A stretch of 64,000 nt of DNA from Cyrtodaria siliqua (lineage: Eukaryota > Mollusca > Bivalvia > Adapedonta > Hiatellidae): positions 248,001-312,000 of the forward strand of contig JAWPHD010000298.1 in the NCBI GenBank assembly GCA_037043455.1, given 5' to 3'. The notes beneath the pieces are model-generated. The model worked only from the letters and a program-made list of their open reading frames with translations, did not search any database and had not been told where the DNA came from. This document shows positions 9,963 to 61,489 of the stretch, piece after piece. The position numbers and the translations under genes were made by a program. How positions within the stretch are numbered: the stretch's first letter is position 1; each line of letters starts with the position of its first letter.

Positions 9963-11942
9963 TTTTAGCTCTATTGGCCGAAGGCCAGCAGAGCTTATGG
10001 GATGGCGAGTTGTCCGTCGTCCGTCCGTCGTCCGTCTGTTAACTTTTGCCTTGTGAACACTCTAGGGCCTTCATTATTTATCGAATCTTTACGAAACGTT
10101 ACCAGTGTCTTTATATCAATGAAAGCTCGGACAAATTCGAAAACCAGCCGGATCGGATAAATTTCACCGGAGTTATGGCCCTTGTTTTGCTGAAAAATGT
10201 CATATTAAGCCTTGTGAACACTCTAGCACCTTCATTTATTATTTGATCTTTACCAAACTTGCACAGATTGTTAATATCAATGAAAGCTCGGACAAGTTCG
10301 AAAACCAGCCAAATCAGATCAGTAACGCCAGAGTTATGGCCCTTGTTTTTTCTGAAAATTGCTATTTTCTGCCTTGTGAACGCTCTAACACCTTCCTTTA
10401 TTATTTGATCGTTACCAAACTTGCACAGATTGTTAATACTAATGATAGCTTGGACAAGTTTGAAAATCAGCCAAATTGGGTCAGTAACACCAGAGTTATG
10501 GCCCTTTTTTTCTTTCTGAAAAAGCCATTTTCTGCCTTGTGAACACTCTAGCACATTCATTTATTATTTGATCTTTACCAAACTTGCACAGATTGTTAAT
10601 ATCAATAAAAGCTCAAATAAGTTCGAAAACCAGCTAAATCGGATCAGTAACACTGGAGTTATGGCCCTTGTTTTTTCTGAAAAATGCTATTTTCTGCCTT
10701 GTGAACACTCTAGGGCCTTCAATATCAATCGGACCTTTACTTAACTTTGCCAGTGTCTTTATATCAATGAAAGCTCGGACAAGTTTGAAAACCGGCAAGA
10801 TCGAAATAATTTCACCGGAGTTATGGCCCTTGTTTTGCTGAAAAATGCCATATTAAGCCTTGTGAACACTCTAGCACCTTCATTTATTATTTGATCTTTA
10901 GCAAACTTGCACAAATTGTTAATATCAATGAAAGCTCGGACAAGTTCAAAAACCAGTTAGAACGGACCATTAACAGCGGAGTTGATGCCCTTGATTTAGT
11001 TAAAAATGCTATATTTTGCCTCATTAAGACGATAGGGCCTTCATCTTTCATCCAATCTTTACCAAACTTTACCATATTGTTTATATAAATGAAAGCTCGG
11101 ACAAGTTTGAAAACCAGCTAGATCGGACCCTTAACAGCGGAGTTATGGCCCTTGATTTAGTTAAAAATGCTATATTTTGACTCGTTAAGATGATAGGGCC
11201 TTTATCTTTCATTCGATCTTTAAGAAACTTTACCAGATTGTTAATATCAATGAAAGCTTGGACAAGTTTGAAAACCATCCAGATTGGACCATTTACATCG
11301 GAGTCATGGCCCTTGATTTTCTGAAATATGCTATATCTTGGCCTCATTAAGACGAAAGGGCCTTCATTTGGCCGGATTTCATTGAAACTTTGCAGGGATG
11401 ATCAGTACCAAGCCTAGTTGTACATAGTCACCGTGTTCCAGTTGAATGATTTAGGCGGAGTTATAGCCCTTTAAAGGTTTTAATACACAAACTTTGTTCT
11501 GACTAGTTCTCTTGAACCCCTGGCCGGATTTAAACGAAGCTTTTTAGGGATGATCAATTCCATGTCTAGTTGTGCAAGTCATTGCCGTATTTCAGTTGAA
11601 TGATTTTTTTGGCAGAATTATGGCCCTTTAAAGGTTTTAATACACAAACTTTGTTTGATCTACTTCTCCTGAACCCCTCGCCAGATTTCAATGAAACTTT
11701 GCAGGGTTGATCAGCACCAAGCCTAGTTGTGCATGTCGTCGTCACGTTCCAGGTTTACAGATATTTGGCAGAGTTATGGCCCTTTAAAAAAATTTGATAC
11801 CACAATTTTTTCCGGGCTATTTCTCCTGAACCCCTGGCTGGATATAGACGAAACTTGACAAGGATGATCAGTATCAGCCTAGTTGTGCATGTCATCGCCA
11901 TATTTCGGTGGAATGATTTTTGGCAGAGTTGTGACCCTTTAA
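9963..11942 (+). repeat. Long tandem-repeat element, left part (~162-bp units)
   Basis: Starts with 'agctctattggccgaaggcc' and 'tgtccgtcgtccgtccgtcg'. It then carries about eight units of ~162 bp marked by 'gccttgtgaacactct' (10048, 10209, 10370, 10534, 10697, 10858) or its variant 'gcctcattaagacga'. After ~11370 come three or four units of a related type marked by 'atggccctttaaaggtttta'. Open frames on both strands through this block are repeat by-products. It is interrupted at 11942 by a DNA transposon and resumes at 15568. Confidence 0.85.
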
Positions 11943-12508
11943 AGGGGCAACTGCCGTATAAAAGCCACTAGATGGAGCTGGGGCAGGTTTTTCATTTAAA
12001 TTTATACATGGTTACATCAGGGAGTCCTTTTTCAAAATCTTGAAAATTCCACCTCATAAAAAAAATATATATTTGGCACAGAAGTACACTGATATTAAAC
12101 ACTTGTATTGGTAAAAAAATATTTGTGTAAAAGCATTTATTATTCCTAGTTTCAAAGTTTATTTAAACCCAACTGACAGAAATTTGAAAATATGAGGGAG
12201 GAGCTTGTGGGGTCATGAACTGAGAAGTGTACACAAATACACGTGGTAGTGTTTACAGCAGACGACATGCACTAGTTAGGTAGTTGTTACATTACAGATG
12301 GAGAAACCTGAATGGAAAATGTATGAACACTTGAAGAAAATAGTATTACAGTTATTTTAATCCTGAACTTGTTTTATATAATAAACTTATCTTTCTTTAA
12401 CTTGGAACATTTCATTCATGTTGCAGAGAGGTATATATATTGCCTGTTGATTATTATAATAAGGTTTAAGATGTTCAAAAGAAAGAAAGTAGAATAAAGT
12501 ACCTTTAA

Positions 12509-12730
12509 CGATAACATTATTGTCTGGGTGTTTTGAGTATCCATACATGTATAATTCACCAGAAGTGTCCCATGTAAGGTAACGATAACGGTATTGTCTT
12601 GGTGTTTTGAGTATCCATATATGTATAGTTCACCAGAAGTGTCCCAAATGTAAGGTAACGATAACAGTATTGTCTTGGTGTTTTGAGTATCCATATATGT
12701 ATAATTCACCAGAAGTGTCCCATATAAGGT
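12509..12730 (-). repeat. ~76-bp tandem repeat at the 3' end of the P2X7-like gene
   Basis: Three units marked by 'caccagaagtgtccca' (12550, 12628, 12707) and 'gtcttggtgttttgagtatc'. On the minus strand the first unit contains the last codons of the neighbouring protein (…MGHFW, stop). The later units repeat this coding end downstream of the stop, so the duplication started from the gene's 3' end and now forms part of its 3' untranslated region. Confidence 0.85.
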
Positions 12731-13386
12731 ACATCTTTAGGGTTTGGATACAAGTGTCTCACTTGGTTTAGAACGCATTCTGGCATTATCTCTCTTTGTG
12801 TAAGTTCTACATGCGATTCACTCATGGACTGGTGTTTTCTTGCTAAATAAATAGGGTTGCTCCAGAGTCCTCGCCTGTCCAACATCACCCAAAACTTTTT
12901 GTAAAGCCTTTTTCTAATGACATTATTGCCAGGACGTGCAGTTAAACCCCTTCCAAGCCATGCTTGCGGATAAGCAGTTACACATGGAAGGTTCAAACAG
13001 TGTATGCAAGGAATGTTATGATCATTGTGTTCATTCTGGTCATGTCCTTGATTGTCTACATCATTTGGGCTGGGTAGAGAGGCACATGCATTTTGTAGAA
13101 CACCTTTGTCTTTGTTGTGCACCGTGTGAATCACCCTAGCAGTACTCTGAGATGGGACATTTGTATCTGTGTTTGTGGATAAGTACTGTCCATGTACGTG
13201 TGTTCCTGATAATAAATCATCTCTATCATGTCCATATTGAACACCAGAATCAGAATCAGAATCACCACTATGTACTTCTATATCCCACCCATGAAAATTG
13301 AATATTCCTTCAGTAATGTCCTTCTGTTCCTTTGTCATATATACTATGTACTTCCTTATTTTGTTATCTTCATCATGTCCAGCCAT
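12706..13386 (-). CDS. P2X7-ballast-like domain protein carried by the transposon
   Basis: A 226-residue protein counted from the ATG at 13386; an in-frame TTG three codons earlier is not a credible eukaryotic start. The N-terminal ~110 residues are acidic, rich in Asp, His and Ser and probably disordered. Residues ~127-226 resemble the cytoplasmic 'ballast' domain of vertebrate P2X7 receptors and its invertebrate relatives. They show a CxxCxxxxC cluster (C127, C130, C135), an aromatic YKKFW stretch, the segment REIMPECVLNQVR containing C204, and a conserved ending YPNP..VPYMGHFW with H224. In P2X7 comparable cysteines and a histidine bind zinc; applying this here is inference. It lies head-to-head with the transposase, 292 bp apart, and both are inside the TTAA element. 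The role is unknown; a DNA- or zinc-binding accessory protein or a regulator of transposition are possibilities. No membrane segment is visible, so it is not itself a channel. Confidence 0.7.
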   Translation of the reverse strand: MAGHDEDNKIRKYIVYMTKEQKDITEGIFNFHGWDIEVHSGDSDSDSGVQYGHDRDDLLSGTHVHGQYLSTNTDTNVPSQSTARVIHTVHNKDKGVLQNACASLPSPNDVDNQGHDQNEHNDHNIPCIHCLNLPCVTAYPQAWLGRGLTARPGNNVIRKRLYKKFWVMLDRRGLWSNPIYLARKHQSMSESHVELTQREIMPECVLNQVRHLYPNPKDVPYMGHFW

Positions 13387-13678
13387 TTCTAACAATAATT
13401 ATTTTAAATTGTAATTCCCAGCACAATATGTTCTTACAATATCCAAGTTATACACAGAACTGATCCCTGATCAGTACATTGTTTCACCAGACAAACTATA
13501 ATTGGCAATTAATTTTCATTAAACACAAACTTAATATATCATGAACTATTTGCTGACAGTGTGAATATATATGGCATTGATTTCTGTTTAGTCATCATAT
13601 TACATTTATTTTGGCGGTAAAGTTCATAGAAGTGCCAAACAGTGGAATTGAGAATAAAACAGTGAAATAGAGTAAAAC
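13387..13678. promoter_or_regulatory. Probable bidirectional promoter between the two transposon genes
   Basis: This 292-bp gap separates divergent start codons and contains no coding frame, so any promoters for both genes should lie here. It is AT-rich. No single TATA box can be assigned with confidence. Confidence 0.35.
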
Positions 13679-15418
13679 ATGGATAATCCTGTTGAACAGC
13701 CTGGATTAAATAGAATACGGGATGCTATGAGACTTCAAGCAAGGACATATCCGTCATGTTCTAAAGAAGCTAGAACAGAATCTAATCAACGACAGAAACA
13801 AAGACAAAGCAGTCTAAGGGGACGAATAGAATATTATTACAAGACAGAAAATGAAAAAATGGAGTTGCTCAACAAAATGGATAGATTGAAATTGTTTCTT
13901 GGAGAGGGAAAATTCAATGTAATTTCAACTTTTGAGCTCTTACACAGGGTTTTTGATTTTTTTATCAACACTAACATTCCATCAGAAAGAAATGGAGATA
14001 ATGCAGCAGACTTAGATGAGTCGGTATACATGTACCAGTACATAGACAAAGAAGATGCAGTTGATGAACAGCTGTTTGTTGGATCTGTCAGTTCCGTGAA
14101 AAATCTGGTGTCACAGGTTGAATCACATGCATCTAAATGTGAAAACAATATTAAAATAAAAGACAGTAAAAGAATACGCCATGTACTTTCTCTAAATATG
14201 GAATGTGAACAATCAAATCATTCATTTTCATGGACATCTTCACCACACATAGAACAGGGAAAATGTCTAGTCAATGCAAGGATTGCTCATGGCTATTTTA
14301 CTTCTGGTATGTTACCAAACCACTTAAATAAATTTTGCCAAGAAGCAAATATTGGTGAAATAGGCGATAAATACATGAAAGAGCTGCAAACATCATATGA
14401 AGAGGTAGTCTCCAGTGCGATCAGCAGATCCAAGGAACAAGTATTGCAAGAAGAAATAGCAACATCTGCAGCTGGTTTGTCTGAAAATGAAGATGTCACC
14501 GGAATAAACATCCTGACTGATGCAAGGCACTGTTGGAGAAAAAATGCCACATTTAGTGATGTTGTCTGCATTGGACAGGAGACAAAGAAAGTTTTAGATG
14601 TTGAAACAATATCAAAGAAAGTAGATGACCCCTGTTCTCAACGGCATGAACTTATTGGCGTGAAAAGAATTTATGAATACTTTGATGAGAATGATTGCCC
14701 AATCAATATCCATGCTCATGACAACAACAACCAGATTACCAAATATGTACGAGAGGAAAGAAGTCCGACACAGAATGCTATCGACACATGGCATATGACT
14801 AAATCCATAGCAAAGCAAGCTAAAAAAATTACATCAGGATTTAAATGTAACCATGGAAAACTTTGGCACGAGGAACTTTCAGACAAAGCAGCTGCAATAA
14901 GGACTCACATCTACCATTCTATGAAAAATAGTCAAAACAATGCTGATAAATTACGAGAAAATATTTTAAACTTTGTGGAACATTACCAAGGTCACCATGA
15001 CAGTTGCTTCCAAAGCTCAAGGTGTAGATCTGACCCGAATTATGAATGTTCAAAATTTATTCTAAAATGTGATAAAGCCGTAGCAATTTTGACTAACTTT
15101 TTGAAAAACTTGCCAGTATACAAAGAAGCTGAAAAATATAAATATTGTATGGATACTCACTATGTAGAGTCATTTAACAACGCCCTTCTGCAGTATGTGG
15201 ACAAACGAATTGTGTTTGGTGCTTCAAGTTATAAGTTAAGAATTAATTTAGCAACTTTAGATTGGAATGAGCATGCAAACAGAGAATCATCATCAGTTAG
15301 GGTAATGAGCTACAAAAGAAATCCTGAAATGACATACACAGTTCCAGTAAAAAAAAGGAAATTAAATAGTTTCAAAGAAATGATTTGGAGTCAATGGATT
15401 GATAAACTTTACTCCTAG
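13679..15418 (+). CDS. Kolobok-like DDE transposase
   Basis: A complete 579-residue uninterrupted frame with an ATG start. The N-terminal ~280 residues hold a charged helical region (about 35-75) without a recognised DNA-binding motif; I see no THAP domain. The catalytic-like core has D281 in TDARHCWRKN, D348 in HAHDNNNQITKYV, then D369TWH, and E497 in YVESFNNALLQ. This spacing and the '..D....I.KYVRE....DTWH..KS' stretch are what I recognise from Kolobok-type and related RNase-H-fold transposases. A Cys/His-rich insertion (HHDSCFQSSRC..DPNYEC, about 438-457) lies between the second D and the E. The intact frame and the matching TTAA termini suggest the element could have been active recently. 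The stop at 15418 lies 149 bp inside the right end. Alternative: a domesticated host gene, but the exact termini argue against it. Confidence 0.72.
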   Translation: MDNPVEQPGLNRIRDAMRLQARTYPSCSKEARTESNQRQKQRQSSLRGRIEYYYKTENEKMELLNKMDRLKLFLGEGKFNVISTFELLHRVFDFFINTNIPSERNGDNAADLDESVYMYQYIDKEDAVDEQLFVGSVSSVKNLVSQVESHASKCENNIKIKDSKRIRHVLSLNMECEQSNHSFSWTSSPHIEQGKCLVNARIAHGYFTSGMLPNHLNKFCQEANIGEIGDKYMKELQTSYEEVVSSAISRSKEQVLQEEIATSAAGLSENEDVTGINILTDARHCWRKNATFSDVVCIGQETKKVLDVETISKKVDDPCSQRHELIGVKRIYEYFDENDCPINIHAHDNNNQITKYVREERSPTQNAIDTWHMTKSIAKQAKKITSGFKCNHGKLWHEELSDKAAAIRTHIYHSMKNSQNNADKLRENILNFVEHYQGHHDSCFQSSRCRSDPNYECSKFILKCDKAVAILTNFLKNLPVYKEAEKYKYCMDTHYVESFNNALLQYVDKRIVFGASSYKLRINLATLDWNEHANRESSSVRVMSYKRNPEMTYTVPVKKRKLNSFKEMIWSQWIDKLYS

Positions 15419-15567
15419 CTGATCTGTAAGTACATTGTTTTATGTCGTCTGCTGTTTACATTGCTATTTTTAGAATCATTCACTGTAACTGACAGCCCAG
15501 CATAACTGGTGTAATTTGATAGCCACTCCTCCAATCTCTCCCTACCAGGGTAGGGAATTTTGCCCCT

Positions 15568-15775
15568 TTAAATGGTTTAATACACAAACTTTGTCCAGAT
15601 TAGTCTCTTCTGAACTCTTTGCCAGATTTCAGCGAATCTTGGCGAGAATGATCAGTAGTAAACCTAGTTGCACCTATCATTGCCATGTTCTGGTTGAATG
15701 ATTTTTGGCCCCTTATACATAAACTTTATCTTGAGCCAGTAGAGCGTCCACAGGCCCTCTTGGGCCTCTTGTTAT
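15568..15775 (+). repeat. Long tandem-repeat element, right part
   Basis: Continues the repeat interrupted at 11942 with 'tggtttaatacacaaacttt'. It ends in 'ccagtagagcgtccacag' and 'ccctcttgggcctcttgtt'. The same end occurs in reverse complement at 33001-33210, which confirms it as an element boundary. Confidence 0.85.
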
Positions 15776-17228: not shown

Positions 17229-19027
17229 GAAGGATAAAAATATCGGACAGAGAAAGCAGCATTCAAGGACGACAGTCAACCACAAAACACAAAAACAAAC
17301 ACGCAAACAGACCAACGAAAAGGCAAAAGTAATAAAAAATGCAAACGACATCACAAACACAAAAGGGTTGACAATAGGTCTACCGCCTTGGAACGGTCAG
17401 TGGCAAAGTCGGCCACTGGGGGTTTAAACCGGTTCTAGGGTGCACCAAACCTCACACTAACCCTACTGTCATCCCATTAAAACAGGACAGTGTAAATAAA
17501 GAAATCCCCGCCATGATCTAAACTCTAACCAACAAGGCAGCATCAATAGGCAATATAAGTAAAACACAAAAATGCTCGTGTAAATATAATACAAAAAAAC
17601 AATAGCCTAGAAAGCCACAATGAAGGTACTCAATGACTTGGCAGAAGCCAGAGCAGTAAGAGAATACACCATTAAGGGCAGGACAAGAAAGAACATGGAC
17701 AAACATCAAACGCCACCGCCCCAATGGGCTTTAGGTAGGCGTCATCATAGGGTCCACAGCCTGTCCGGTCATCGTACAATTAAAGAGGAAAGCATAGTGG
17801 CGAACTGTAAAAGGGTCCACCACCAAGCATGCAGTATGTTGCAAAATGATAGGGTCATAACCTCTTTTGATAAACTTTTTAACAAGTTTAACAAAGATAG
17901 TATGAAAGTGATCATGACCAAGAGTCTTACGAAGTTTATAAATCACATCACCATAGAAGTCAGGTTGTGATAGTCCTTGTCGCAGAAGAGTCCTTAAATT
18001 ACATTTATATTTGGAAAGAAGATCAGGGTTACGATAATAAAATTTTGCAAAGGTTTTACGAAGTTTATGGTAACGGTAACCCTGATTGAGTAACTTTTTA
18101 GTTATACAAAGATTACGAATATTAAAGTCCTCAACTCGAGTACAAGCTCTAGAAAAACGAATAAGTTGAGACACATACACCCCATAAGAAGTTGCTCGGG
18201 GAACATCCCCATCCAAGTGGGGATAATTAACAATGTCAAAATTAAAATCATCTCTCTTGTCATAGATTTTGCTAATTATTTTACCATTTTTAATCGAGAG
18301 ATCTAAATCAAGAAAAGAAGCGTTATTATCAGATATATTTTCTTTATTAAGCCGAAGTTCTTTAGGATAAATATTATGAACCATAGTTGGAAAGAAAGGG
18401 TTGTCAATGTTCAGTATGTCATCCAGATACCGAGAGGTGTCATTAAAAGCTTCAATAACATCTGCCTGGGTATCTGGTGAAAGACTCAACATGAAATCCC
18501 TTTCATAGCAAAATAAAAACAAATCTGCGACAAGTGGTGCACAGTTCGTACCCATAGGGATACCAACAATTTGTCTATAAACGGTGGTACCATACCTGAC
18601 GAAAATATTATCTGATAGGAAGATGAGTGCTTCACAAACTTCATAGCAAGTCCACATAGTATAATTGTCTAAACTGCCGTTAGTGAAAAACGCTTTAATA
18701 TTATTACATGCCAAAAATGTAGTATTTTCTCTAGCGAATGTTTTTTGAATAAGAGAAATTAGCTTGTCTTTAATAAGATGATGTGGTAAAGTTGTATATA
18801 GTGTAGAGAAGTCATAAGTGCTTATTGATGAAACTTGACCTTTATTGAAAATTTTATCAAGAACGTCTCCTGAATTTTTTATAGACCAAAATAAATTAAT
18901 CCCAGAGTTTTCATAAGTTTTATCACAATATAGTTTAACGTGATCTTAAACGGCAGTAAGACAAGAAGTTAAAAGTTTGGAGATGTTTGTTGTGGTGCAG
19001 GCACTAGAATTAGAAATAAATACTTTT
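17229..19027 (-). mobile_element. Penelope-like retroelement copy A, 5'-truncated
   Basis: The longest copy of the most abundant coding repeat in the window. Read on the minus strand it starts inside the reverse transcriptase N-terminal region near 19027, where a different repeat abuts. It continues through the RT stop at 17731 and a ~500-bp 3' tail, and ends at the family's shared 3' terminus, 'ctgtccgatatttttatcc' on the minus strand. The tail carries a conserved phrase (cctagaaccggtttaaacc) seen at more than ten other places in this window. Confidence 0.85.
17731..18939 (-). pseudogene. Reverse transcriptase, Penelope-like, one frameshift
   Basis: The reading frame is open from about 18939 to the stop at 17731, roughly 400 residues. 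RT motifs in order: YDFSTLYTTLPHHLIKDKL (motif A region), then IPMGTNCAPLVADLFLFCYE, then SRYLDDIL (YxDD catalytic box), then FLDLDLSIKNGKI, then a long C-terminal part ending DPMMTPT. This motif set resembles Penelope-like elements rather than LINE or LTR enzymes; assignment to a subclade is not attempted. A single-base deletion near 18947, compared with the copy at 44447-44453, separates this frame from upstream family sequence. No GIY-YIG endonuclease is seen after the RT. Confidence 0.8.
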
Positions 19028-33000: not shown

Positions 33001-33210
33001 TATAAGAGGGCCTGTGGATGCTCTACTGGCTAAAGCTAAAGTTTTTGTATAAAAGGCCATAACTCTGTGAAAAATCATTCAACCAGAACATGGTGATGAC
33101 ATACGCAACAAGGCTTGGAACTGATCATCCCTGTCACGTTTCGCTGAAATCTGACCAGAGGTTCAGGAGAACTAGTCTGTACAAAGTTAGTGTATTAAAA
33201 CCTTTAAAGG
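33001..33210 (-). mobile_element. Right-end fragment of the 9963-15775 element family
   Basis: Begins 'tataagagggcctgtggatg' and contains 'gtgtattaaaacctttaaag', the reverse complement of 15568-15775. It therefore independently shows what the uninterrupted sequence around the TTAA insertion looks like. Confidence 0.85.
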
Positions 33211-41624: not shown

Positions 41625-44451
41625 AGATAAAAATATCGGACAGGGAAAGCAGCATTCAAGGATGACAGTCAACAGCAAAACACAAAAACAAACACGGAAA
41701 CAGACAAACGAGAAGGCAAAAGTAATAAAATATGCAAGCGACATCACAAACACAAAAGGGTGGACAATAGGAACGGTCAGTGGTATCAAAGCCACTGGGG
41801 GTTTAAACCGGTTCTAGGGTGCACCAAACCTCACTGTCATCTCATTAGAACAGGACAGTGTAAATAAAGAAATCCCCGCCATGATATAATCTCTAACCAA
41901 CAAGGCAGCATCAATAGGCAATATAAGTAAAACGCAAATATGCTCGTGTAAATATAACACAAAAAAAACACAATAGCCTAGAAAGCCACAATGAAGGTAC
42001 TCAATGAGTTGATAGAAGCCAGAGCAACAAAACTAAACCATTAAGGGCACGACAAGAAAGATCATAGACAAACATCAAACGCCATCGTCCGATTGAGCTT
42101 TAGGTAGGCGTCATCATAGGGTCCACAGCCTGTCCAGTCATCGTACAATTCAAGAGGAAAGCATAGTGGCGAACTGTAAAAGGGTCCACCACCAAGCATG
42201 CAGTACGTTGCAAAATGATAGGGTCATAACCTCTTTTGATAAACTTTTTAACAAGTTTAACAAGGATAGTATGAAAGTGATCATGACCAAGAATCTTACG
42301 AAGTTTATAAATCACATCACCATAGAAGTCAGGTTGTGACAGTCCTTGTCGCAGAAGAGTCCTTAAATTACTGTTATATTTGGAAAGAATATCAGGGTTA
42401 CGATAATACAATTTTGCAAAGGTTTTACGAAGTTTATGGTAACGGTAACCCTGATTGAGTAGCTTTTTAGTTATACAAAGATTACGAATATTAAAGTCCT
42501 CAACTCTAGTATAAAGCTCTTGAAAAACGAATAAGTTGAGACACATACACCCCATACATAAGAAGTTGCTCGGGGAACATCCCCATCCAAGTGGGGATAA
42601 TTAACAATGTCAAAAATAAAATCATCTCTCTTGTCATAGATTTTGCTAATTATTTCACCAGATCTAAATCAAGAAAAGAAGCGTTATTATCAGATATATT
42701 GGCTTTGTTAAGCTGAAGTTCTTGATGATAAATAGTATTAACCATAGTTGGAAAGAAATGGTTGTCAATGTTCAATATGTCATCCAGATACAGAGAGATG
42801 TCATTAAAGGCTTCAATAAAATCTGCCTGGGTATCTGGTGAAAGACTCAACATGAAATCTCTTTCATAGCAAAATAAAAACAAATTTGCGACAAGTGGTG
42901 CACAGTTCGTACCCATAGGGATACCAACAATTTGTCTATAAACGGTGGTTCCATACATGAGGAAAATATTATCTAATAGGAAGATGAGTGCTTTACAAAC
43001 TTCATAGCAAGTCCACATAGTATAATCGCTAAACTGCCGTTAGTGAAAAACGCTTTAATATTATTACAGGCCAAACATGTAGTATTTTCTCTAGCGAAGG
43101 TTTTTTGAATAAGAGAAATTAGCTTGTCTTTGATAAGATGATGTGGTAAAGTAATATAAAAAGATCGGACAGGGAAAGTAGCATTCAAGGAGGACAGTCA
43201 ACCACAAAACACCGAAACAAACACGCAAACAGACAAACAAGAAGGCAAAAGTAATAATAAAAGCAAACGACATCACAAACACAAAAGGGTTGACAATAGG
43301 GATACCGCCTTGGAACGGTCACTGGCAACGTACGCCACTGGGGGTTTAAACCGGTTCTAGGGTGCACCAGACCTCACACTTACCCTACTGTCATCCCATT
43401 AAAACAGGACAGTGTAAATAAAGAAATCCCCGCCATGATATAATCTCTAACCAACAAGGCAGCATCAATAGGCAATATAAGTAAAACACAAATATGCTCG
43501 TGTAAATATAATACAAAAAAAACAATAGAATAGAAAGCCACAATGAAGGTACTCAATGACTTGGCAGAAGCTAGAGCAACAAGAGAATAAACCATTAAGG
43601 GCACGACAAGAAAGATAATAGACAAACATCAAACGCCACCGTTCCAATGGGCTTTAGGTAGGCGTCATCATAGGGTCCACAGCCTGTTCGGTCATCGTAC
43701 AATTAAAGAGGAAAGCATAATGGCGAACTGTAAAAGGGTCCACCACTAAGCATGCAGTACGTTGCAAAATGATAAGGTCATAACCTCTTTTGATAAACTT
43801 TTTAACAAGTTTAACAAAGATAGTATGAAAGTGATCATGACCATGAATCTTACGAAGTTTATAAATCACATCACCAAAGAAGTCAGGTTGTGATAGTCCT
43901 TGTCGCAGAAGAGTCCTTAAATTACTTCTATATTTGGAAAGAAGATCAGGGTTACGATAATAAAATTTTGCAAAGGTTTTACGAAGTTTATGGTAACGGT
44001 AACCCTGATAGAGAAGCTTTTTAGTTATACAAATATTTCGAATACTAAAGTCCTCAACTCGAGTACAAGCTCTTGAAAAACGAATAGGTTGAGACACATA
44101 CACCCCATAAGAAGTTGCTCGGGGGACATCCCCATCCAAGTGGGGGTAATTAACTATGTCAAAATTAAAATCATCTCTCTTGTCATAGATTTTGCTAATT
44201 ATTTCACCATTTTCAATCGAGAGATCTAAATCAAGAAAAGAAGCGTTATTATCAGATATATTAGCTTTATTAAGCTGAAGTTTTTTAGGATAAGTTGTAT
44301 ATAGTGTAATCATAAGTGCTTATAGATGAAACATGACGTTTATTGAAAATTTTATCAAGAACGTCTCCTGAATTTTTTATAGACCAAAACAAATTAATCC
44401 CAGAGTTTTCATAAGTTTTATCACAATATCGTTTAACGTGATCTTTAACGG
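41625..44451 (-). mobile_element. Penelope-like copy B, interrupted by copy C
   Basis: Copy B occupies 41625-43152 and 44296-44451 on the minus strand. The halves join at 'gatgatgtggtaaagt' and 'tgtatatagtg', a continuous phrase in copy A (18776-18802). The RT frame is broken several times (pieces at 42100-42555, 42650-43018, 42973-43188) and contains a small deletion near 44310. It is a pseudogene copy that served as target for a later insertion. Confidence 0.88.
43153..44291 (-). mobile_element. Penelope-like copy C, 5'-truncated, nested in copy B
   Basis: A 1139-bp insertion starting with the shared 3' terminus (aatataaaaagatcggac on the plus strand) and ending inside RT coding. AAGT occurs on both sides (43149-43152 and 44292-44295), consistent with a short target duplication. 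The RT C-terminal frame 43654-44290 is open and ends in the same DPMMTPT as copy A. Confidence 0.9.
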
Positions 44452-59169: not shown

Positions 59170-61410
59170 CCTGTTGATTTTGTATCTACTTTGTATATAT
59201 TGTGTATCTACTTTGTATCTACTTTGTATATATTGTGTATCTACTTTGTATATTGTGTATCTACTTTGTATAATGTGTATCTACTTTGTATCTACTTTGT
59301 ATATATTGTGTATATATTGTGTATCTACTTTGTATATTGTGTATCTACTTTGTATCTACTTTGTTTATATTGTGTATCTACTTTGTATCTACTTTGTATA
59401 TATTGTGTATCTACTTTGTATCTACTTTGTATCTACTTTGTATATTGTGTATATATTGTGTATCTACTTTGTATATATTGCGTATCTACTTTGTATATTG
59501 TATATATAATGTGTATCTACTTTGTATATATTGTGTATATACTTTGTATATTGTGTATCTACTTTGTATAATGTGTATCTACTTTGTATCTACTTTGTAT
59601 ATATTGTGTATCTTCTTTGTATATATTGCGTATCTACTTTGTATCTACTTTGTATATATTGTGTATCTACTTCGTATATTGTGTATATACTTTGTATATT
59701 GTGTATCTACTTTGTATATATTGTGTATCTACTTTGTATATTGTGTATCTACTTTGTATATACTTTGTATATATTGTGTATCTTCTTTGTATATATTGCG
59801 TATCTACTTTGTATCTACTTTGTATATATTGTGTATCTACTTTGTATATTGTGTATCTACTTTGTATAATGTGTATCTACTTTGTATCTACTTTGTATAT
59901 ATTGTGTATCTACTTTGTTTATTGTGTATCTACTTTGTATAATGTGTATCTACTCTGTATCTACTTTGTATATATTGTGTATCTACTTTGTATATTGTGT
60001 ATCTACTTTGTATATACTTTGTATATATTGTGTATCTTCTTTGTATATATTGCGTATCTACTTTGTATCTACTTTGTATATATTGTGTATCTACTTTGTA
60101 TATTGTGTATGTACTTTGTATATTGTGTATCTACTTTGTATAATGTGTATCTACTTTGTATATACTTTGTATATTGTGTATCTACTTTGTATCTACTTTG
60201 TATATATTGTGTATCTACTTTGTATATACTTTGTATATATTGTGTATCTTCTTTGTATAATGTGTATCTACTTTGTATCTACTTTGTATATTGTGTATAT
60301 ACTTTGTATATTGTGTATCTACTTTGTATCTACTTTGTATATATTGTGTATCTACTTTGTATATTGTGTATCTACTTTGTATATACTTTGTATATATTGT
60401 GTATCTTCTTTGTATATATTGCGTATCTACTTTGTATCTACTTTGTATATATTGTGTATCTACTTTGTATATTGTGTATCTACTTTGTATATTGTGTATC
60501 TACTTTGTATAATGTGTATCTACTTTGTATCTACTTTGTATATATTGTGTATCTACTTTGTATAATGTGTATCTACTTTGTATCTTCTTTGTATATATTG
60601 TGCATCTAGTTTGTATATTGTGTATCTACTTTGTATATACTTTGTATATATTGTGTATCTTCTTTGTATATATTGCGTATCTACTTTGTATATATTGTGT
60701 ATCTACTTTGTATATTGTGTATCTACTTTGTATAATGTGTATCTACTTTGTATCTACTTTGTATATATTGTGTATCTACTTTGTATCTACTTTGTATAAA
60801 TTGTGTATATATTGTGTATATTGTGTATCTACTTTGTATCTACTTTGTATATATTGTGTATCTACTTTGTATATACTTTGTATATATTGTGTATCTACTT
60901 TGTATCTACTTTGTATCTACTTTGTATATATTGTGTATCTACTTTGTATCTACTTTGTATATATTGTGTATCTACTTTGTATATACTTTGTATATATTGT
61001 GTATCTTCTTTGTATATATTGTGTATATATTGTGTATATATTGTGTATCTACTTTGTATTTTGTGTATCTACTTTGTATATTGTGTATTTACTTTGTATA
61101 TACTTTGTATATATTGTGTATCTTCTTTGTATATATTGTGTATATATTGTGTATATATTGTGTATCTACTGTGTATATATTGTGTATCTACTTTGTATAT
61201 TGTGTATTTACTTTGTATCTACTTTGTATATTGTGTATTTACTTTGTATATACTTTGTATATATTGTGTATCTTCTTTGTATATATTGTGTATATATTGT
61301 GTATATATTGTGTATCTACTTTGTATATATTGTGTATCTACTTTGTATATTGTGTCTACTTTGTATCTACTTTGTATCTACATTTGATCTACTTTGTATC
61401 TACTTTAAGG
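59170..61410. repeat. 2.2-kb 9/11-mer satellite with higher-order repeats
   Basis: Composed almost only of 11-mers (tgtatctactt, tgtatatattg, tgtatatactt, tgtatcttctt) and 9-mers (tgtatattg, tgtataatg). A longer block containing 'tgtatcttctttgtatatat' then 'tgcgtatctactttg' recurs near 59610, 59790, 60044, 60409 and 60658, so higher-order units have duplicated. Stop codons are rare in every forward frame, producing overlapping frames up to 341 codons of YCVSTLYILCIYFV type. These are not genes. Confidence 0.97.
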
Positions 61411-61489
61411 ATACAAAATGCTACTAAAATTAGTTCAACAATATTTTTGTGAGGAAACTATCCAACTGGTTTGCGAAACGTCGGTGGTT

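Follow-up and report, generated by a model that had tools for sequence, protein, structure and literature searches.

A TTAA-flanked Kolobok-type transposon in Cyrtodaria siliqua pairs a predicted DDE transposase with a divergent KolX-like protein, a likely distant relative of the P2X7 ballast

Described Kolobok systems and the element considered here

By definition, Kolobok transposons have termini beginning 5'-RR and ending YY-3', and the cytoplasmic ballast of P2X7 has been described as derived from KolX, a Kolobok-encoded protein with seven conserved cysteines, giving the P2X7 C-terminus a transposon origin (Kojima and Bao, 2022; PMC9587614). The same work mentions piggyBac families whose C-terminus resembles KolX but is without most of the seven cysteines. 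In the ballast, also termed Nanor/ZCD, the positions conserved beyond vertebrates are R546, A549, Y550, Y/F553, W559, I/V568, P570, C572, R578, F/Y581 and P582 (Rump et al., 2020; PMC7016195). The literature consulted assigns KolX no function in the transposon.

Within a 64,000-nucleotide window of the C. siliqua genome, an element comprising two open genes arranged head to head, encoding a 579-residue transposase and a 226-residue KolX-like protein (hereafter KolX), was delineated (Table 1). It is probably best explained as a multicopy Kolobok-type transposon in which a predicted DDE transposase is accompanied by a divergent, four-cysteine KolX, itself a likely distant relative of the ballast and a likely accessory factor. 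As the pairing of transposase and KolX was published in 2022, the element adds a divergent example to a type already known. Likewise, a transposon origin for the C-terminus of P2X7, a question on which the initial annotation expected the element to bear, had already been reported (PMC9587614). New here are the reduced-cysteine KolX branch and its prevalence, together with a related 2.8-kb subfamily with no detectable KolX.

Table 1. Features of the element, in window coordinates
Feature	Position	Strand	Basis or remark
Kolobok-type DNA transposon	11943..15567	.	3,625 bp; termini, TTAA, empty site, co-linear genomic copies
TTAA target-site duplication, left	11939..11942	.	
TTAA target-site duplication, right	15568..15571	.	
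Terminal inverted repeat AGGGGCAA	11943..11950	+	
Terminal inverted repeat AGGGGCAA, inverted	15560..15567	-	
Subterminal inverted repeat, left arm	12250..12268	+	
Subterminal inverted repeat, right arm	15442..15460	-	
Internal minisatellite	12498..12723	.	three ~76-bp copies; overlaps KolX 3' end
KolX-like gene, 226 aa from ATG	12706..13386	-	ORF; 60-row family alignment; genomic copies
KolX conserved domain, residues 120-226	12709..13029	-	C127, C130, C135, C204 and ballast-like C-terminal motif
292-bp stretch between divergent start codons	13387..13678	.	presumed shared promoter region, from position only
Predicted DDE transposase, 579 aa	13679..15418	+	open ORF; Pfam Mutator PF20700, E 1.1e-16
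Predicted catalytic D281	14519..14521	+	invariant, 42 rows
Predicted catalytic D348	14720..14722	+	invariant, 42 rows
DTWH, C/DxxH superfamily signature, residues 369-372	14783..14794	+	W371 and H372 invariant; D369 and T370 in >=90%
Predicted catalytic E497	15167..15169	+	>=90% of 42 rows

The ends, target duplications and inverted subterminal 14-mer first noted for this element were confirmed, and the coordinates first given for it are exact. Allowing at most one mismatch, TTTAAAGGGGCAA occurs in the 64-kb window only at the two ends of the element, a result equalled in 2 of 100 shuffles, while the subterminal arms match at 17 of 19 bases, including 14 exact ones (at least 14 being reached in 4 of 2,000 Markov shuffles). 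An empty site was also seen. When joined, the flanks of the element align across the junction with adjacent units of a 157-bp tandem array; these neighboring units are free of any insert and have one TTTAAA each (at 11461 and 11618), a third, spanning 11664-11885, carries the variant TTTAAAAAAA, and the empty site appears again at 33191 on the minus strand.

The initial assignment of the larger gene to the Kolobok-like DDE transposases was borne out by its Pfam match and by the residues D281, D348, DTWH and E497, as revealed by a 42-row alignment into which 41 of 99 matches were taken. H435, H440, C443 and C449, invariant in these rows, lie between C/DxxH and the glutamate, where almost all Kolobok lineages other than Kolobok1 have a zinc finger, and would be the zinc ligands. 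The 42 rows include no invariant or near-invariant cysteine between D281 and D348, and the CCHC finger that follows the first aspartate in lineages P, E, D and 5 was not found. No Protein Data Bank entry matched the transposase by sequence.

With Kol0 and its KolX (PMC9587614), the element shares TTAA, RR...YY ends (here AG...CT), a DDE transposase with DxxH, a zinc finger between the second aspartate and the glutamate, and a ballast-related second gene, namely the divergent KolX gene recognized by a ballast HMM. The likeness to Kol0 consists of these features. By contrast, Kol0 KolX has seven cysteines, as opposed to the four kept here in at least 90% of rows, and the KolX of the window is missed by the Pfam P2RX7_C profile. 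KolobokP, a lineage present in bivalves, likewise has an accessory gene besides its Kolobok transposase, the two being encoded on opposite strands. However, KolobokP has long terminal direct repeats of ~450 or 660 bp, whereas the only direct-repeat family of at least 25 nt in the element is the minisatellite of three 76-nt copies, and KolobokP identity was rejected on this basis. The element further differs in that neither of its ORFs matches a nuclease family in Pfam and in that its transposase lacks a conserved cysteine between the first two aspartates. The piggyBac families with a KolX-like tail, compared by description only, also combine a TTAA target with a reduced-cysteine tail, yet the transposase considered here has Kolobok signature residues.

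Pairing of the two genes and the possible role of KolX

Copies were sought in the same 2.88-Gb genome. Because only the best candidates were scored (KolX, best 150 of 1,351; transposase, best 75 of 1,203; left end, best 40 of 1,089; PF20478, best 150 of 259), genome counts are lower bounds and are biased toward close relatives. The 8-mer AGGGGCAA was far too common to serve as a copy probe, yielding 31,281 forward and 31,790 reverse matches.

Among the best 75 of 1,203 transposase candidates, a head-to-head KolX was found at 38 of 42 loci of at least 70% identity and at 5 of 7 loci of less than 50% identity, in a count that took in 132 of 155 KolX matches and 66 of 87 transposase matches, the remainder being further pieces of copies already included or unlisted matches. 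In other sources, six KolX and transposase matches fell on equal-sized contigs, as compared to a mean of 0.6 (largest 4) when sizes were offset, with 98 of 99 transposase rows being used, one having no contig size. The initial annotation would have been contradicted by copies with the same termini but no P2X7-like gene. Within the family this is not so, as 37 of 41 left ends (from the best 40 of 1,089 candidates) lead into a KolX match in the expected orientation, a count based on 51 KolX rows from closer copies, three of these being second pieces outside the 132. Outside the family, however, the 2.8-kb subfamily has a similar left end and no detectable KolX at three loci (L059, L060 and L061). 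At 50-69% identity, 15 loci have no listed KolX, as judged from the sequence at four and from the lists alone at 11. The transposases at the four examined loci all contain stops, such that these loci may have been mobilized in trans. Judging from the 2.8-kb subfamily, KolX may not be strictly required, or it may act in trans.

The two genes would function together, with KolX probably being a zinc-binding transposition accessory. The transposase would bind AGGGGCAA and the subterminal repeats, excise the element and insert it at TTAA, while KolX would fold around a single zinc site comprising C127, C130, C135 and C204 and would assist in end binding, synapsis or nuclear delivery, with both genes presumably being expressed from the intergenic stretch. 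Members of the related subfamily would either do without KolX or receive it in trans.

It is also conceivable, albeit unlikely, that KolX is carried along as a passenger, or as a self-limiting regulator that may repress or tune the transposase, with movement being possible in its absence. This would agree with the existence of KolX-less relatives whose left end is similar, and with the absence of a purifying signal in within-family pN/pS, by which constraint on KolX was not shown. Yet the head-to-head pairing spans wide divergence, both below 50% identity and on equal-sized contigs in other sources, the KolX motif residues are conserved over 60 diverse proteins, and the stops at the four examined KolX-less loci point to possible movement in trans. 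The notion that KolX is a host gene was rejected, since its copies lie inside the element. Scanned viral contigs contained no KolX relative.

A family of nearly identical copies whose KolX has fewer cysteines, set beside a related subfamily without KolX, lends itself to the question of whether transposition was the original use of the ballast fold and of which ballast features (two zinc sites, nucleotide contacts) were ancestral.

Genomic copies and recent activity

Twenty loci were picked via KolX and are, therefore, counted separately from those chosen by transposase or terminus. Within these loci lie 21 copies, with an identity to the element of 89-99% over the aligned pieces. Eleven of the 21 align without a break across at least 3,617 of 3,624 bases; the others align in several pieces, with gaps or missing ends. 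TTAA flanks both sides in 14 of the 16 copies with both ends testable, two of the 16 being in tandem; five copies (L039, L040, L042, L050 and L052) lacked a testable end and were left out. Across 22 copies, median divergence from the majority sequence is 0.86% for the transposase and 0.61% for KolX. With so many near-identical copies in the genome, the element was likely active recently.

That the element is instead a non-mobile remnant whose intact look is due to chance seems rather improbable. While only 3 of the 21 other copies have a full-length, open and in-frame transposase, the window copy has intact ends and TTAA, both of its frames are open, as first noted, and its genes differ from the majority by only 0.35% (transposase) and 0.59% (KolX).

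KolX and the P2X7 ballast

The cysteine/histidine domain initially described at the KolX C-terminus was upheld in part. C127, C130, C135 and C204 are kept in at least 90% of the 60 rows and H224 is conserved, but H129, found between the first two cysteines, varies among relatives. One further cysteine belongs to the majority consensus and is absent from the window protein. Residues 120-226 were modeled with a pLDDT of 92 and a pTM of 0.83. Of 78 KolX matches, one alignment took in 59 and another 73.

The proposed likeness to the P2X7 ballast was backed by sequence profiles as a distant relation, although not by Pfam P2RX7_C (PF20478), to which the window protein has no match at E<=10. The best E value among the 60 members was 0.043, short of the curated cut-off of 23.5 bits; separate matches above this cut-off exist in the same genome. 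Protein Data Bank sequence searches at E<=10 with the KolX protein, an 8-row profile and a 60-row profile likewise found no match. By contrast, an HMM built from ballast pieces of the same genome and P2X7 gave the window protein 10.6 bits, relative to 7.4 bits for the best of 3,000 shuffles (2,165 scoring at all), with 58 of 60 members exceeding the best shuffle and 59 of 60 exceeding the best reversed sequence. When the HMM was built only from the 14 ballast pieces of this genome, 53 of 60 members surpassed all shuffles, including the window protein (9.5 bits vs. 8.6 for the best shuffle). Profile-profile comparison of KolX and ballast gave a P of 5.3e-5. In a column-permutation control, the real pair scored 31.7 bits and the permutations 12.4 on average; two of the 300 permutations came out higher, at 140.0 bits over 50 columns and 132.9 over 5, and are presumed to be aligner artefacts. 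A structural match, whose absence would have spoken against the initial annotation, was not reported, although only 3 and 10 chains were aligned.

KolX shares with the ballast, in order, C-I/V-T, N-x3-R-x3-Y, I-x-P-x-C, R, F/Y-P and Y-x-G, and keeps the arginines aligned with 546 and 578; it differs in having fewer conserved cysteines, no tryptophan at the position of 559 and no channel. Nine of the 11 positions of Rump et al. (2020) match, A549 and W559 being the exceptions, in a mapping made by hand in which six of the nine served as alignment anchors. The motif N-x3-R-x3-Y ... P-x-C-x5-R-x3-P ... Y-x-G, selected post hoc upon inspection, is present in three P2X7 sequences, 55 of 60 members and none of 300,000 shuffles. 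The window KolX is hence likely a distant relative of the ballast, and the reduced-cysteine KolX looks like a side branch rather than the source from which P2X7 obtained its tail with seven cysteines.

Convergence of a protein of other origin on a short zinc-binding tail motif is improbable: the likeness does peak in the ~28 C-terminal residues, Pfam P2RX7_C misses the window protein and structure comparison reported no match (just 3 and 10 chains being aligned), but the second block, N-x3-R-x3-Y, aligns in the correct order, 58 of 60 members outscore all shuffles with the ballast HMM, and the Kolobok plus KolX setting is that published for ballast-fold KolX (PMC9587614).

A far more speculative proposal, for which the chances are slim, would cast KolX as a zinc protein that responds to guanine nucleotides and thereby licenses the Kolobok transposase, with the GDP-binding ballast of P2X7 having begun as a transposon nucleotide switch. 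The P-element transposase contains a GTP domain within the transposase itself; KolX would then perform the same job in trans. R158, found in 60 of 60 rows, and R210, in at least 90%, which align with P2X7 R546 and R578, are conserved despite the reduced cysteine set.

The element and its transposase

The element, 3,625 bp in length, is bounded by the inverted ends AGGGGCAA, with TTAA on both sides, and also carries a subterminal inverted repeat. It is embedded in a 157-bp tandem array, and this array of ~157-bp units, divided by the element, served as the empty-site control. Joining of the flanks yielded an array unit that aligned through the junction with neighbouring units having one unbroken TTTAAA. 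The insertion is thus directly observed, and the TTAA-delimited transposon with inverted ends and subterminal repeat described in the initial annotation is borne out. The last KolX codons fall within a minisatellite, such that the end of KolX, the 226-residue product of the minus-strand gene, is duplicated inside the element; repeat alignments were obtained for this region in fetched copies as well. Positions of these and other features are listed below.

Features of the window
Feature	Position	Strand	Remark
Tandem array, unit ~161 bp	10047-11336
Tandem array, unit ~157 bp	11369-11945		resumes at ~15573, beyond element
Element	11943-15567
Minisatellite, three copies of ~76 bp	12498-12723		covers last KolX codons
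KolX gene	12706-13386	-	no Pfam match
Transposase gene	13679-15418	+	Pfam Mutator PF20700, 1.1e-16
Repeated related ORFs	17731-18714, 42100-42555, 43654-44313	-	from their look, presumably reverse-transcriptase-like; 17731-18714 without Pfam match at 1e-3
Single-exon rhodopsin-type GPCR, 511 aa	25368-26903	+	7tm_1, E 7.3e-39
Long low-complexity array, YLLCIYFV-type repeats	59286-61452	+	several frames open; by appearance not a gene

The plus-strand product had been read as a Kolobok-like DDE transposase, an assignment upheld by its PF20700 match and by conserved residues in an alignment of 42 rows. In that alignment, D281, D348, W371 and H372 are invariant, as are the predicted zinc-finger residues H435, H440, C443 and C449, with D369, T370 and E497 being nearly so. 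This layout is that given for Kolobok in the available text of Kojima and Bao (PMC9587614). No conserved cysteine was found between the first two aspartates in the 42 rows, which argues against Kolobok lineages P, E, D and 5. Named matches came from Mytilus, Pinctada, Pecten and Littorina, and also from lancelets, suggesting a bivalve host. The transposase is predicted to cut and paste at TTAA.

Genomic copies and the pairing of the two genes

Searches of the 2.88-Gb assembly, in which the window occupies positions 248001-312000 of contig C298, returned at least 155 matches to KolX and at least 87 to the transposase, counts drawn from the best-scored candidates and hence lower bounds biased to close relatives. 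At 20 loci chosen by KolX, 21 copies were found, with aligned pieces 89-99% identical to the element; 11 aligned as a single piece at full or almost full length, and TTAA flanked both ends in 14 of the 16 in which both could be tested. At one locus (L043, contig C16317), two copies lie in direct tandem with a single TTAA common to both, recalling the multimers reported for KolobokP.

Across 22 copies, the median divergence from the majority was 0.86% for the transposase and 0.61% for KolX. Besides the window copy, a full-length, open and in-frame transposase was seen in 3 of 21 copies and such a KolX in 16 of 21. Given this low divergence and these open frames, we infer that the family was recently active. 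Private changes appear neutral in both genes; shared changes comprise 24 nonsynonymous versus 16 synonymous in the transposase and an uninformative 10 versus 3 in KolX.

Copies sharing the termini and lacking KolX had been proposed as a test of the two-gene unit. Among the matches listed, 37 of 41 left ends chosen by terminus were followed, at no more than 2.5 kb, by a match to KolX in the expected orientation. Likewise among the matches listed, KolX lay head to head with the transposase at 38 of 42 transposase-chosen loci of at least 70% identity, the four exceptions having only a partial transposase match. Contig C1192 is an exception in both sets, and its copy looks internally deleted. At lower transposase identity, KolX was listed at just 2 of 17 loci (50-69%) and at 5 of 7 (below 50%).

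At four inspected loci without a listed KolX, none was detected by HMM. Comparison of two of these (L059 and L060) revealed an element of ~2.8 kb starting with TTAA-AGGGGCAACTG, the left end of which is 78.6% identical to that of the element over 98 aligned positions, while the right end differs. The transposase of both loci contains stops, and KolX is not detectable there; a further locus, L061, is related at the left end. The expectation that same-end copies carry KolX largely holds within the element's own family; the related subfamily, similar at the left end alone, has no detectable KolX, which suggests that KolX need not be present in cis. The retention of KolX beside divergent transposases, and hits to both on contigs of identical length in other sources, favour a role in the life cycle of the element, with KolX likely serving as a zinc-binding accessory.

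KolX and the P2X7 ballast

A sequence search identified 78 relatives of KolX. A 60-row alignment shows C127-x2-C130-x4-C135-x-T, N154-x3-R158-x3-Y162 and P202-x-C204-x5-R210-x3-P214-x6-Y-x-G-H. The long linker was of low confidence in a model of the whole protein, and residues 120-226, modelled separately, gave a pLDDT of 92 and a pTM of 0.83.

The likeness to the ballast, the cytoplasmic C-terminal domain of P2X7, stood in part. The window protein has no match to Pfam P2RX7_C (PF20478), weak matches being seen in 8 of the 60 members; no PDB sequence was matched, nor was a structural counterpart seen in comparisons with a small number of chains, and P2X7 alone gave modest scores. By contrast, with a ballast profile built from 14 genomic P2RX7_C pieces and three P2X7 sequences, 58 of the 60 members exceeded the best of 3,000 shuffles, of which 2,165 scored at all (window KolX, 10.6 bits; best shuffle, 7.4), as did 53 once the P2X7 rows were removed. 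Profile-profile comparison gave P 5.3e-5, a value weakened by implausibly high scores in 2 of 300 column permutations. Nearer the N-terminus, a further block lines up with the ballast in order; it is present in the HMM alignment of one compared sequence (P0119) and absent from that of the window KolX. We conclude that KolX is probably a distant homologue of the ballast, best matched in its last 28 residues and with a reduced cysteine set.

In the available text of Kojima and Bao (PMC9587614), the KolX protein of Kol0 elements is likened to residues 476-595 of P2X7 and has seven conserved cysteines, a few piggyBac families have a KolX-like tail missing most of these, and P2X7 is traced to a P2X4-like gene that became fused to KolX. 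Rump et al. (PMC7016195) report ballast domains throughout animals, including oyster and limpet, in a main text in which the stem 'transpos' is absent. The available portions of a Xenopus Kolobok study, describing TTAA and AG ends (PMC6004289), and of a bivalve transposon survey counting Kolobok elements (PMC10294476) mention neither KolX nor P2X7. No reduced-cysteine Kolobok KolX appears in the titles or abstracts surveyed on Kolobok, KolX or links between P2X7 and transposons.

P2RX7_C itself matched the genome at least 135 times. Many of these matches have identical scores and come in pieces the size of exons, which suggests a multicopy gene family or a different transposon that bears the domain.
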